Source: Caldinitratiruptor microaerophilus
GTDB lineage: Bacteria; Bacillota; Sulfobacillia; Symbiobacteriales; ZC4RG38
Reading direction: 5' to 3'
DNA: 64,000 nt
Assembly: GCF_025999835.1 (NCBI RefSeq)
Contig: NZ_AP025628.1
Coordinates: 2,294,001-2,358,000, forward strand
In this document: piece by piece, positions 3,098 through 9,310 of the stretch
How positions within the stretch are numbered: position 1 is the stretch's first letter
Layout: each line of letters begins with the position of its first letter
Notes under the pieces: model-generated
Told to the model about the DNA's origin: nothing
Databases searched by the model: none
The model's input: the letters and a program-made list of their open reading frames with translations, nothing else
Translations under genes and position numbers: made by a program

Positions 3098-3937
3098 TCA
3101 GTGCCTGGGGGACGGGGCGGCTGGATCGACGGGCTCAGCACCCGGCAAGAACCCCATGTGTTCGGCAAGGAGGTCGAGGTACAGCGTCTGGACGTCCCAC
3201 AGCGTCGGGTCGTCTACCATCTCTTCCCGGATCACCTTCAGGTAGCGGCGGCATCTCTTGCAGACGTGCAGTTCGGCTTGCGCATCGCCTTCCACGGTCA
3301 CGATGTCGCCGGGTTCCTCCTCCGGACAGAACGGGCACACGAAGCGCGGCAGGCGCCAGTTCGTGGCGCACCGCCGGCAAATCAAGAGGCGCGGCCCCGG
3401 CACCCCGGCCTGCCTTTTCATGATCCGCCCGAGTCCGGGGAGGCTACCGCATACGGGGCAGATCCGCCGGGACCAGAGAACCCCGGTCTCGAGTTCGGGT
3501 ACGCGCTTGGTCACGGTTCGGGCGTAGGCCCGGAGGTATGCCCTGCGGGCGTGCTCCACGAGGAACCCCGCCCGCCCCTTCAATCCGCATTCGCCCCGTA
3601 GCACCCAGCGTCCCATGTCCTCCGGGGCCAGGCGGGCCATCTCGGTTTCCGCGCGGGTCAGGTCGGCGGAAACCGCCTCCGCGTCACCGCCAGGGAAGTG
3701 GGGAGCGGCGGCGGCCGCCATCACGCGCACCAGACCGAAGAACGCATCGGGCCGGAGGGCGGGCGGCCAGACGTCCCCGATCGACCGACCCTCCGCGAGG
3801 TGGACCCGGAGCGCCGATGGGTCTGGCTCCGGGTTCAAGCCCCACCAGCCATCCGGAGGTGGAAGGGCGGCCAGGGCCCGGTGCAGGGCCAGGGCGCCCG
3901 CAGGCGGCTCGACCGGAGGCCAGACCGGCTCACGCAC
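3098..3937 (-). CDS. fdhE: formate dehydrogenase accessory protein FdhE
   Basis: A 279-residue cytoplasmic maturation factor for respiratory formate dehydrogenase. In the family it acts on the Fe-S/catalytic subunit before Tat export. The C-terminal half has the diagnostic rubredoxin-like CxxC series: CPVC near 168, CRRC near 197, CPFC near 212 and CKRC near 236. These four pairs bind iron in known FdhE proteins. GTG 3937 overlaps the end of fdnI by 8 bases, so it is the last gene of the fdnGHI-fdhE operon. Length and gene order match classical fdhE loci. Confidence 0.9.
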   Translation of the reverse strand: MREPVWPPVEPPAGALALHRALAALPPPDGWWGLNPEPDPSALRVHLAEGRSIGDVWPPALRPDAFFGLVRVMAAAAAPHFPGGDAEAVSADLTRAETEMARLAPEDMGRWVLRGECGLKGRAGFLVEHARRAYLRAYARTVTKRVPELETGVLWSRRICPVCGSLPGLGRIMKRQAGVPGPRLLICRRCATNWRLPRFVCPFCPEEEPGDIVTVEGDAQAELHVCKRCRRYLKVIREEMVDDPTLWDVQTLYLDLLAEHMGFLPGAEPVDPAAPSPRH

Positions 3938-4604
3938 CGGACTTCCCTCCTGCCGCGCCGGCCTTCTCCGTCCGGCCCAGCTCCTCCAGCCACTTGGCGT
4001 GGTGGGTCTCCAGGTAGCGGCGATCGACCCAGCCCGAGGTCATCGCCGAGAGGGCCACCCGTGTCTCGCGGTGGAAGGCCGCCAGGAACACGTGGCCGAT
4101 CACATACGCCAGCAGACCCATGGCGGTCAGGCCATGGAGCGGGTACATCCAGCGAACCAGGCCCACCGGAAAGAGGTTGGGGAAGAGCATGATCAGCCCG
4201 CTCCCCAGGAGCACCAGTCCACCCGCGATGAGGACGGCGGACCAGGCTTTCTGCCCGGCGTTGTACTTGCCCTGCGGTGGCAACCGGGAGCCGGAAACGA
4301 GCCCGAAGAAGTAGGCGAGGAAGTACCTGCGCCAGGCCCGGTCGTCGGCATCCCACCGAAGGACGTGGGCCGTCCAAGTTCGGAACCCGCCCACCACCGC
4401 CAGGGCCAGGATGGCCGTGAAGGCCGCACCAGCCCAGTGGTGCACCACCCGTGCGCCGTACATTCCCCCGAAGAGCGGTGCAAGCCACCCGAACCAGCCG
4501 TAGGCGTAAAGGGGCACGCCCGTGAGGACCAGGATGAAGAATGTGACGGCAAGAGCCCAGTGGGCTCCCCGTTCGATCGGCGAGAACTTGCGCACGCGTT
4601 CCAC
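3930..4604 (-). CDS. fdnI: formate dehydrogenase cytochrome b subunit
   Basis: A 224-residue membrane cytochrome b of the FdnI/FdoI type, which carries electrons from the Fe-S subunit to the quinone pool. Four transmembrane helices are visible (about 16-36, 53-74, 120-142 and 154-175). Candidate heme b histidines lie in ERGAHWAL, VVHHWAG, PLHGL and VIGHVF, the usual four positions. It starts 3 bases after fdnH and overlaps fdhE. The cytoplasmic tail (about 185-224) is charged and Ala/Gly-rich. Confidence 0.92.
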   Translation of the reverse strand: MERVRKFSPIERGAHWALAVTFFILVLTGVPLYAYGWFGWLAPLFGGMYGARVVHHWAGAAFTAILALAVVGGFRTWTAHVLRWDADDRAWRRYFLAYFFGLVSGSRLPPQGKYNAGQKAWSAVLIAGGLVLLGSGLIMLFPNLFPVGLVRWMYPLHGLTAMGLLAYVIGHVFLAAFHRETRVALSAMTSGWVDRRYLETHHAKWLEELGRTEKAGAAGGKSGA

Positions 4605-4607
4605 GAC

Positions 4608-5414
4608 CTACACCTCGTTTCGCTTGCCGTCGTCACCGCTGCCGTTCATGCGCCGCTGGATGACGAACGCGACGACCGATGCCGCCAGCGAGGCGCCGAC
4701 TGCGACCCCGCCGACGGGCTTGGTTACCGACTGCCACACGGTCACGGAGGCGGGAACCCGCGGGTTGGCAGGGAGGCCGTACGCCTCGGGCGGACCGGGA
4801 AGCAGGTAGACGACCCGGGTCCCGCCCACCCCGGGCGGATCGTAGATCTGGGCGTCCGGAAACTCGTCCCTCACCGCCTCCAGCCGGGCCTTCGCTTCCG
4901 CCAGGACCTGTTCCCGCTCGCCGAAGACCAGGGCCCCGGTTGGGCAGGTCTTGACGCAGATCGGCTCCATCCCGTTGGTGATGCGGTCGTAGCAGAGGAT
5001 GCACTTGGAGACCTTGCGCTCGGCGGCACTGTACTTGGGCACCCCAAAGGGACAGGCACTCTCACAGTAGCGGCAACCGATGCACACGTCCTGGTCGAGG
5101 TTCACTGCTCCGGACTCCGTGCGCTCGAGAGCATCCACCGGGCACACCGCGACGCAGGGCGGTTCCCCGCAGTGCAGGCACTGGTGCTTGCGGAAGAACC
5201 AGGTCGGTGGCTGGCCGTCGTCACGGGCTACCTCGTAGAACTGGACGTTGACCCAGCGGTTGTAGCCCAGGGAGCCGCCGGCATGCTGGTAGCTGCCTTC
5301 GAAGCGGGCTCCTTGCCACTCGCCCGGGAGATCGTACCACTCCTTGCACGCGACCACGCAGCCCCGGCAGCCCACGCAGCGGGTGACGTCCACGAGCTTC
5401 GTGACCTCCGCCAC
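4608..5414 (-). CDS. fdnH: formate dehydrogenase iron-sulfur subunit
   Basis: A 268-residue electron-transfer subunit of the FdnH/FdoH type. It contains four cysteine clusters for [4Fe-4S] centres: CVGCRGCVVAC at about 13-23, CLHCGEPPCVAVCP, CIGCRYCESACP, and CILC with CVKTCP. A single C-terminal transmembrane helix (about 235-256, after SVTKPVGG) anchors it to the periplasmic or extracytoplasmic face, as in E. coli FdnH. There is no signal peptide, because it is exported with FdnG. It lies 3 bases after fdnG and 3 before fdnI, so it is part of a tight operon. Confidence 0.95.
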   Translation of the reverse strand: MAEVTKLVDVTRCVGCRGCVVACKEWYDLPGEWQGARFEGSYQHAGGSLGYNRWVNVQFYEVARDDGQPPTWFFRKHQCLHCGEPPCVAVCPVDALERTESGAVNLDQDVCIGCRYCESACPFGVPKYSAAERKVSKCILCYDRITNGMEPICVKTCPTGALVFGEREQVLAEAKARLEAVRDEFPDAQIYDPPGVGGTRVVYLLPGPPEAYGLPANPRVPASVTVWQSVTKPVGGVAVGASLAASVVAFVIQRRMNGSGDDGKRNEV

Positions 5415-5417
5415 CGC

Positions 5418-8405
5418 TCACACCCCCTCCGCCTTCTGGACGTCACAGAGGAAGACCTTGTATTCCGGGATCATGGTGTTGGCGTCCCCGATGTGGGGGG
5501 TCAACACGTTGGCGATGTCCCCGGTCACAAGTCCCAGAAAGCCCCAGTGCCACGGGATCCCGATCTGTTGCACCTGCTTGCCGCCGAGTTGAAGCGGCTG
5601 AACACGCGGGGTGACGAGTGCGCGGGCCCGGATCTGGCCCCGGGCGGTGCGCACGACCACCCAGTCGCCCGGCCGGATCCCTCTGGCCTCTGCCAGCGAT
5701 GGGCTCATCTCCACAAAGGGCTCGGGTACCATCTCGACGAGCCGCGTCTGCCGGCGGGTCACAGCCCCGGAGTGCTGATGCTCCGTGAGCCGCCACGTCG
5801 AGGCCACGATCGGGAAGCGCTCGGGGTCGCCGCGGTCGTTGCCCTCGCCAGTCCAGACGCGCACGGCAGGGTTGAGCGGTACCGGGTTCAGGGCGTTCTC
5901 GACGGGACTTTCGAAGGGCTCGTAGTGCTCGGGGAACGGTCCATCCACCATGCCGGAGGCGAAGAGGAGGCCCACACCTTCGGGCAGCATGATGAAGGGA
6001 CTGCGGCCACCCGGGTCCTCTGGCGACCGGGTGGGAGGGAAATCGGGTACGTCATACCCAACCCACTGCTTCTTGCCGCCGTCCCACCAGATCACGGCCT
6101 TGTCCGGCGCCCATGGCTGCCCCTCCGGGTCGGCACTGGCTCGGTTGTAGAGCACGCGGCGGTTTGCCGGCCAGGCGAACCCCCAGCCGGGGTAGTTCCC
6201 CAATTCACCCGGGTCCTCCAGCTTCCGGGAAGCCGCACGGTTCCCCTTGGTCCCGTAGTACCCGGTGTAGATCCAGCAACCGGCGGCGGTGGAGCCGTCG
6301 TCCGCAAGGGCGGCGAAGGAGTCCAACTGCGTCCGGTCCCCCGTCCGGTACCCGTTAAGCTCCGCCGCCACCTTCTCGACGTCCGGCGCGTCGGCCGGGC
6401 CGTAATCCCAGTGCAAGTCCCGGATCGGCGCGTCCTCCGGGCGTGTGCTGCTGGCGTAAGCGGCCTTCAGGCGCAACGCCAGGTTGTGGACGATCCACAG
6501 GTCCGACCGGGCGTCGCCCGGGGGAGCCGTGGCCTGCCAGCGCCACTGTAGCAGCCTTCCGGAGTTGGTGACGGAGCCTGCTTTTTCGAGGAAATGCGCC
6601 GCCGGGAGCAGGAAGACCTCGGTCTGGATCGTCTTGGGGTCCACGCCGGGCCGCTTCCAGAAGCCGGCGGTCTCGTTCTCGAAGATGTCCACCGTCACGA
6701 GCCAGTCCAGCTTCTCCAGCGCCCGGGCCTCCTTGCCGGCGTTGGGGCCCGAGCAAACCGGATTCTGCCCGAAGTTGAAGAGGCCGCGGATCTTGCCGGC
6801 GTACATGTCCTCGAACAAGGCGATGTGCGAGTAGTTCTTTCCGGCCCTCAGCTTGGGCAGGTAATCGTAGGCGAAGTCGTTCTCCGGTGTTGCCTTGTCG
6901 CCCCAGTAGGCCTTGAGGAGGCTGACGAGGAACTTGGGCCGGTTTGTCCAGTATCCGGCCTTGGGGGTCGAAGCGTTGTAGGCCGCCAGGTTCGGGTGCG
7001 CGGCCTCGTCCGGAGTGGGCAGGTAGCCGGGCAGGTTGTTGAAGAGGAGGGACACGTCCGTCGAACCCTGCACGTTCGAGAGGCCGCGCAGCGCGTTAAC
7101 GCCGCCCCCCGGACGCCCGATGTTCCCCAGCAGCATCTGCAGAATGGCGTAGGCGCGCACGTTCTGCGACCCCACCGTGTGCTGGGTCCCGCCCATGGCG
7201 TAGAGGATCGTGCCCGTCTTGTCGGGCGCGGCCGTCGAGAGGAACAGGTCCGCGATCTGCAGGAAACGCTCCCTCGGCATGCCGGTGACCCGCGCGACGG
7301 TGTCCGGGTCGTAGCGGCTGTAGTGCGCTTTCATGAGCTGGAACACTGTGCGGGGGTGCTGGAGCGTCGGGTCCTGTAGGATCTTCCCCTCGGTATCTGT
7401 CTGGTACTTCCAGGTCGACTTGTCGTACCGGCGCTTCTCGGGATCGTAGCCAGTGAAGAGGCCCTCCCGGAAACCGAAACTTTCGTCGACCAGGTACGAG
7501 GCGTTCGTATAGTTGACGACGTACTCCCGGTGGAAGCGCCCGGTCTCCAGGGCCAGGTTGATGAGTCCGCCGATGAAAGCGATGTCAGTCCCCGGCCGGA
7601 GTGGGGCATAGAGGTCCGCCAGGGCCGAGGTGCGGGTGAAACGGGGATCCACGCTGATGATCTTGGCCCCGCGGCGCTCACGTGCCTCGAGAATCCAGTT
7701 GAACCCCACCGGGTGGTTTTCCGCCGGGTTGGCACCGATGATAAGTGCCACGTCGGTGTTCCGCATGTCCACCCAGTGGTTCGTCATCGCACCACGACCG
7801 AACGAGTTCGCCAGACCGGCGACTGTGGAGGAGTGTCATATCCTCGCCTGGTGTTCGATGTAGACCACGCCCAGGGCGCGCATCAGCTTCCCGATCAAGT
7901 AGCACTCTTCGTTGTTCACGATCGCGCTACCCAGGCTAGCGATGGCCTCTGTCCGGGAGACGGTCGTGCCGGCTTCGTTCCTGTACTCGAACGTGGCATC
8001 CCGTGTTTCCTTCACCCGCTGGACGATCCGATCCAGGGCCCATTCCCACGTCTTCTCTTCCCACTCTGTTGCTCCCGGCGCCCGGTAGAGCACGCGGGTG
8101 AGCCGTTCCGGGTTCGTTGCCATCTCCCGCAGGGCCATCCCCTTGGCGCACAAGCGGCCCTGGTTGATCGGGTTGTCGGGGTCGCCTTCGACGGTGACGA
8201 GCTTCCCGTCCCGGACGTAGGCCGTCACGCCGCAGCCGACCGCGCAAAAGTAACAGACGGACTGCACGGGCGTTGTGGAGGCCGTCTTCAACGTGCGAAC
8301 ACGGGCCCGGGCCGACCGTACGTCGAAGCCCAGCTCGAGCAGCCAGGCCAGCGCCGTGCCCGCTCCGGTCGTCTGCAAGAAGCGCCTGCGGCTCATCATG
8401 GTCAT
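5418..8405 (-). CDS. fdnG: selenocysteine formate dehydrogenase, catalytic subunit
   Basis: A 995-residue molybdopterin formate dehydrogenase alpha subunit, read through an in-frame TGA at 7836-7838 as selenocysteine (residue 190). The context is Q-A-R-I-Sec-H-S-S-T-V-A, then FGRGAMTNHW, the same as the FdnG active site. A Tat signal (MSRRRFLQTTGAG) and a [4Fe-4S] set (CYFCAVGC with CAKG downstream) precede it. The molybdopterin-binding and C-terminal oxidoreductase domains fill the rest. ATG 8405 is chosen because GGGAGG lies 7 bases upstream; ATG 8411 would sit next to it with no useful spacing. It oxidises formate to CO2 outside the membrane and passes electrons to FdnH. A plain ORF caller splits it into two pieces. 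Confidence 0.95.
7800..7838 (-). promoter_or_regulatory. bacterial SECIS element of fdnG
   Basis: After the TGA (7838-7836), 18 bases lead to a GGTCT apical loop (7817-7813) closed by CGCC/GGCG. E. coli fdhF has the same 18-base distance to its GGUCU loop, the SelB contact. This supports Sec insertion rather than termination. Confidence 0.8.
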
Positions 8406-8504: not shown

Positions 8505-8548
8505 ACTGGAGTCACCGTGAGACCTCAAGGAATATGGAGGTTGGGACA

Positions 8549-9310
8549 GTGGCACGGCAGGAACCCAGCGAGTTAGCCACTGTAATCGACCTGAGTATCT
8601 TCGAACCTTTCGAGCGCGAGCAGTTGTCCCACCAGGCCTACGTCGTGAACCTGGCAGAGGGCAGCCACCTGTTTGCCGAGGCCGACGAAGTCAACGCCAT
8701 CTTTCTCGTCATCCAGGGGACCGTCTACTGTTACCGTTCTTCCCTCGCAGGGCGGGAGGTACGAGAGCGAGTGGCGGGTCCCGGCGAACTCGTATGCCCC
8801 TTGGCAATCGTGGATGGCCGGCCCGCCCCGGCCTCCGTGCGTGCGCGCTGCGATTCGCAGTGCGTGGCCATCCCCGCCGACGTTGCCCGCCAGAGCGTCG
8901 AGAGGGCCACTCCTTTCGGGCGTGCCATCGTCAAAGAGCTCTGCCGTTGCTGCCGGCGCATGTCTCGCCAGCTGACGCTGCTTTCCCTCGAGGGTACAGA
9001 GCAGCGGGTGGCCTGGGTCCTGTCCGAACTGTGCGAGAACCCGGGGAATGCCACAGAGGTGGCGGCAACGGTGACTCGGGCGGGGCCCGTGGAGCTGCGG
9101 TTGACACACGGGGACCTGGCCGCGCTCGTCGGAACGTCCCGGGAGGTGGTCTCCCGCGCCCTGTCGCATCTGCGTGGCTTGGGCCTCGTCCAGACCGGTC
9201 GCCGGCGCATCGCCGTCCCTGATGTTCTTCGACTGGTGCGGTTCACCCGGGGTTCGGCTGAGCCGGAGCCGGGCAACGTCACACCAGGGTGCGGGACAAG
9301 GCGCCGATGA
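8549..9310 (+). CDS. Crp/Fnr-family transcription regulator
   Basis: A regulator of about 253 residues with an N-terminal cyclic-nucleotide-type beta-roll (about 20-125), a long dimer helix, and a C-terminal winged helix (LTHGDLAALVGTSREVVSRAL at about 191-211). GTG 8549 has GGAGG 8 bases upstream; ATG 8534 is possible but badly spaced. It lacks the N-terminal three-cysteine cluster of FNR. Several other cysteines (CDSQC and CRCC, plus CPLA) could sense redox state or bind an Fe-S centre. Its divergence from fdnG suggests that it controls formate dehydrogenase. Confidence 0.88.
   Translation: MARQEPSELATVIDLSIFEPFEREQLSHQAYVVNLAEGSHLFAEADEVNAIFLVIQGTVYCYRSSLAGREVRERVAGPGELVCPLAIVDGRPAPASVRARCDSQCVAIPADVARQSVERATPFGRAIVKELCRCCRRMSRQLTLLSLEGTEQRVAWVLSELCENPGNATEVAATVTRAGPVELRLTHGDLAALVGTSREVVSRALSHLRGLGLVQTGRRRIAVPDVLRLVRFTRGSAEPEPGNVTPGCGTRRR

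Follow-up and report, generated by a model that had tools for sequence, protein, structure and literature searches.

The window analysed here, a 64,000-nucleotide stretch of the Caldinitratiruptor microaerophilus genome, carries on its minus strand an fdnG-like gene for the alpha subunit of formate dehydrogenase-N (FDH-N; 5418..8405). Read from 8405 to 5418, the gene forms a single frame of 995 residues that ends in TGA and contains one internal TGA (7838-7836, residue 190), and the coordinates that the earlier note had given for a gene split by its own UGA were exact. The read-through protein matches TIGR01553 with 1299.8 bits against a cut-off of 814.2, covering positions 2-1009 of the 1009 in the profile, and formate dehydrogenases of solved structure, among them 1h0h and 1kqf, match it end to end. 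Residue 190 (7836..7838, minus strand) falls on the selenocysteine (X) of the D. gigas formate dehydrogenase 1h0h, which bears out the earlier placement of the UGA at the FdnG selenocysteine position, and most homologues likewise carry TGA there. The family calls for selenocysteine or cysteine followed by histidine at the metal-ligand position, as in Sec190-His191 here. The position-190 column and H191 are invariant in the homologue alignment, as are the [4Fe-4S] cysteines C51, C54, C58, and C86 near the N-terminus and R6 and R7 of the N-terminal twin-arginine export motif SRRRFLQ (8373..8393, minus strand), which was read from the translation.

Three further minus-strand genes follow. An FdnH-like iron-sulfur beta subunit (4608..5414; TIGR01582, 244.7 bits, below the cut-off of 334.7) begins 3 bases past the end of fdnG and is followed by an FdnI-like cytochrome b gamma subunit (3930..4604; TIGR01583, 104.9 bits, below 115.85) and an FdhE-like accessory protein (3098..3937; TIGR01562, 46.9 bits, confined to residues 154-263 and below 187.65). 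These families are the best NCBIfam matches of the three genes, though all fall under the curated cut-offs, indicating that the partner subunits have diverged; the adjacent beta and gamma genes, as judged from their best matches TIGR01582 and TIGR01583, are arranged as in the formate dehydrogenase-N complex. At residue 990 of fdnG (5436-5438, minus strand), arginine is encoded by AGG in 50 of 65 homologues, against 8.2 expected. This AGG is probably the Shine-Dalgarno sequence of the next gene, and it gives the codon ranking described below a useful positive control. Upstream and divergent lies a Crp/Fnr-family regulator gene (8534..9310, plus strand; NCBIfam FtrB and CRP, E 1.6e-22 to 1.9e-12, below cut-offs), which may possibly control the operon.

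Elsewhere in the genome, a second UGA-type FDH-N (L039) is 53% identical to the fdnG-like protein, and an FdhA-type formate dehydrogenase (L196:4829-6883, plus strand; genome about C1:336.8-338.9 kb) contains no internal stop, has cysteine at the active site, and follows genes resembling NADH-dehydrogenase subunits. The genome therefore holds two selenocysteine and at least one cysteine formate dehydrogenase. Among 105 FDH-N homologues readable at the selenocysteine position, the codon is TGA in 98, TGT in four, and TGC in three, cysteine being the sole alternative seen. The record titles of the homologues name Bacillota, Chloroflexi, Nitrospirae, Acidobacteria, Spirochaetes, and others; the UGA is kept across phyla at this position. 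Two homologues (L038 and G324:C41) have two in-frame TGA codons in their FDH-N gene, of which the second may be an error.

A SECIS hairpin (7805..7824, minus strand), identified by folding, covariation, and synonymous conservation, lies just downstream of the UGA. Its stem pairs bases +14..+18 with +24..+28 (7822-7818 with 7812-7808) and may continue for two more pairs beyond a bulge; its sequence is UCGCC-GGUCU-GGCGA, with the apical loop GGUCU at 7817-7813. The loop starts at base +19 after the UGA, leaving 18 bases between the two, so the hairpin is present as the earlier note had described it. E. coli fdhF has the same spacing and loop. The bacterial SECIS (bSECIS) model specifies a loop of 3-9 nt with G in the first two loop positions, a spacing of 16-37 nt, an upper stem of 4-16 bp, and an energy of at most -7.5 (PMC13188914); the present hairpin, with a loop of 5 nt beginning GG, a spacing of 18 nt, a stem of 5 bp, and -11.4 kcal/mol, falls within every one of these bounds. 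A scan of the window with Rfam at gathering thresholds gave no SECIS match, and in folding energy the hairpin was no more stable than dinucleotide shuffles (z 0.18 to 0.55). Folding energy was accordingly dropped as proof of a SECIS element, and the case is a comparative one. In 37 distinct homologues, selected among the sequences that carry GGTCTG in the loop (59 distinct strings), the upper four stem pairs gave a covariation of 0.480, compared with 0.109 for shuffled versions and no more than 0.063 for slid ones, and pairing was retained in 95.9% of cells. In these sequences the third pair out from the loop occurs as G-C or C-G, and the fourth as C-G, G-C, or U-A. For the loop glycine, 84 of 87 homologues use GGU, where the codon usage of the genes themselves predicts 17.3; for the leucine next to it, 82 of 98 use CUG, where 34.2 are expected. 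The covariation of the stem and the synonymous conservation of GGU-CUG make the hairpin non-random.

The genome (3.6 Mb) also contains the selenocysteine machinery, as the earlier note had predicted in naming SelA, SelB, SelC, and SelD. The genes selA (595 bits, C1:2014515-2015888), selB (376 bits, C1:251794-253665), a first selD adjoining selA (377 bits, C1:2013538-2014461), and a second selD (362 bits, C1:1648211-1649131) all score above curated cut-offs, and a tRNA-Sec with anticodon UCA lies at C1:2027628-2027722. The absence of SelB and tRNA-Sec genes, which would have spoken against selenocysteine decoding, is not what the genome displays, since both selB and tRNA-Sec(UCA) are present. 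Each selD has an in-frame UGA of its own (U-G-C-K and U-A-C-K), and a LysR-type regulator gene appears upstream of the second. An extra tRNA-Cys(GCA) with a tRNA-Sec-like fold and a long variable arm was observed at C1:347405-347495; it resembles the selC* tRNA-Cys (PMC7609411), matches RF01852 with 58.3 bits, and has a T (U73) discriminator followed by CCA. Read by eye, its sequence could form 7 bp plus an A.C and a 5-bp T stem, set beside the 8/4 acceptor and T stems and bulged A51a of selC*. A normal tRNA-Cys is also present in the genome (C1:1129358).

We are therefore highly confident that the fdnG-like gene is intact and that its internal UGA is read as selenocysteine by the machinery of the same genome, a kind of decoding found in many bacteria. 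The TGA might instead be a nonsense mutation or a sequencing error in a TGT or TGC cysteine codon of a pseudogene, and cysteine homologues do exist (7/105). However, the UGA is retained at exactly the same codon across phyla, the remaining frame is unbroken, the SECIS stem covaries, and the selenocysteine machinery is at hand, which leaves a decayed or misread gene extremely improbable. Decoding of the UGA as cysteine with the aid of the extra tRNA-Cys is just as improbable: selC* tRNA-Cys species elsewhere do carry UCA anticodons (PMC7609411), and the tRNA found here has the tRNA-Sec-like shape and long variable arm, but its GCA anticodon does not read UGA, and ordinary tRNA-Sec(UCA), SelA, and SelB are all present.

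Only marginally less remote is a gene of two products, in which a 189-residue fragment ending at the UGA, or a protein restarted at the ATG at 7787 within a 789-residue ORF, has a function of its own. Recoding of E. coli fdhF in vivo is put at 30-40% (PMC4513850), so that a truncated product probably forms here as well. Nevertheless, the family fold needs both halves of the protein, and the ATG contained in AUA-UGA opens frames that range from 2 to 155 codons across homologues and so does not mark a conserved gene.

Selenocysteine decoding of a single full-length enzyme is thus the reading we retain, and it makes the fdnG-like gene a known sort of selenoprotein gene, ordinary and well understood. 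SelB, bound to the SECIS hairpin that follows the codon, would deliver Sec-tRNA(Sec) at the UGA (7838-7836), and translation would therefore run on to 995 residues; both the insertion of selenocysteine and the full-length product are predicted from the sequence. The operon fdnGHI, with its fdhE-like gene, would then encode a formate dehydrogenase that is exported and bound to the membrane and has a selenoprotein as its catalytic subunit, the selenium atom being expected as a ligand of the active-site Mo or W. The twin-arginine motif points to export by the Tat pathway, and together with the FdnGHI-type operon it makes export of the complex most likely, the active site then facing outward from the cytoplasmic membrane and electrons passing to quinone. 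By analogy with the E. coli FdnGHI family, the enzyme may oxidize formate and reduce a membrane quinone. Taken as a whole, a selenocysteine formate dehydrogenase operon whose UGA is decoded through SelB and a SECIS hairpin is an almost certain reading of the locus.

The codon directly before the UGA, AUA for Ile189 (7839..7841, minus strand), is under synonymous constraint in homologues and is the sole AUA among the 37 isoleucine codons of the fdnG-like gene. When 611 conserved columns across the whole gene were ranked by synonymous constraint, with z-scores that ignore the relatedness of the homologues, this codon came first (isoleucine as AUA in 63 of 73 where 7.6 are expected, z 22.7) and outranked the SECIS loop codon (z 18.8). 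In a set enlarged by further genomes and cleared of duplicates, AUA was found in 59 of 71 distinct genes (7.2 expected), and among genes of at least 60% GC in 19 of 21 (0.17 expected). Where leucine precedes the UGA, CUC prevails in FDH-N (31/43 against 9.3 expected) and in the FdhA family (TIGR01591; 18/25 against 2.8 expected), CUG being absent from the latter (0/25 against 7.6 expected). The small sample of cysteine homologues has no such bias: isoleucine is AUA in 0 of 3, all three using AUC, and leucine is CUC in 2 of 7 and 1 of 5. No AUA dominance was seen in 30 other conserved isoleucine columns of these genes, and the pre-UGA isoleucine codon is shared between divergent pairs at 72%, against 37-59% in 21 other isoleucine columns; shared descent alone was rejected on these two controls. 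An overlapping gene starting at the ATG within AUA-UGA was rejected on its variable frame length, and pairing of the A before the UGA with a downstream partner was rejected because a mutual-information scan gave no compensatory pattern and the mean pairing probability was 0.33. In both selD genes of this genome the UGA is preceded by GGC, so the preference is established for formate dehydrogenase families only. We favour, with moderate confidence, the view that in UGA-type formate dehydrogenases the recoding signal reaches upstream as far as the P-site codon and that AUA (isoleucine) and CUC (leucine) are selected, probably because the peptidyl-tRNA or the mRNA context favours selenocysteine insertion over release by RF2. 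No description of this constraint was found in the literature searched, mostly open papers, and it may already be known.

The chief use of the gene lies in correct annotation, as two apparent fragments are one enzyme; some annotation pipelines do handle known selenoprotein families. What might interest specialists is the upstream codon constraint, the rest being a gene of a well-known kind. The comparison that led to it has a wider use: no codon in the gene is under stronger synonymous constraint than the one preceding the UGA, and bacterial SECIS models at present consider only the downstream side. If functional, this constraint would help both to predict selenoproteins and to design recoding reporters.

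Compared with E. coli FdnG/FdoG and the Desulfovibrio selenocysteine enzymes (TIGR01553; 1kqf, 1h0h, 6sdr), the present enzyme shares end-to-end homology, the aligned selenocysteine, the twin-arginine motif, and the beta and gamma genes that follow. In contrast to them, its sequence has diverged, with beta and gamma subunits below curated cut-offs, and the residue before selenocysteine is isoleucine from AUA. Both SelD proteins carry an in-frame UGA, like the selenocysteine-containing SelD with the UxxK motif (PMC13188914), but here the genome has two UGA-type copies. The hairpin agrees with the bSECIS consensus of the E. coli fdhF type (PMC13188914) in its position just 3' of the UGA, the GG at the start of its loop, the spacing of 18 nt, and its covarying stem. 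It differs in that a C-G pair closes a loop of five bases, and, unlike in the bSECIS model (PMC13188914), the homologues are also constrained synonymously upstream of the UGA.
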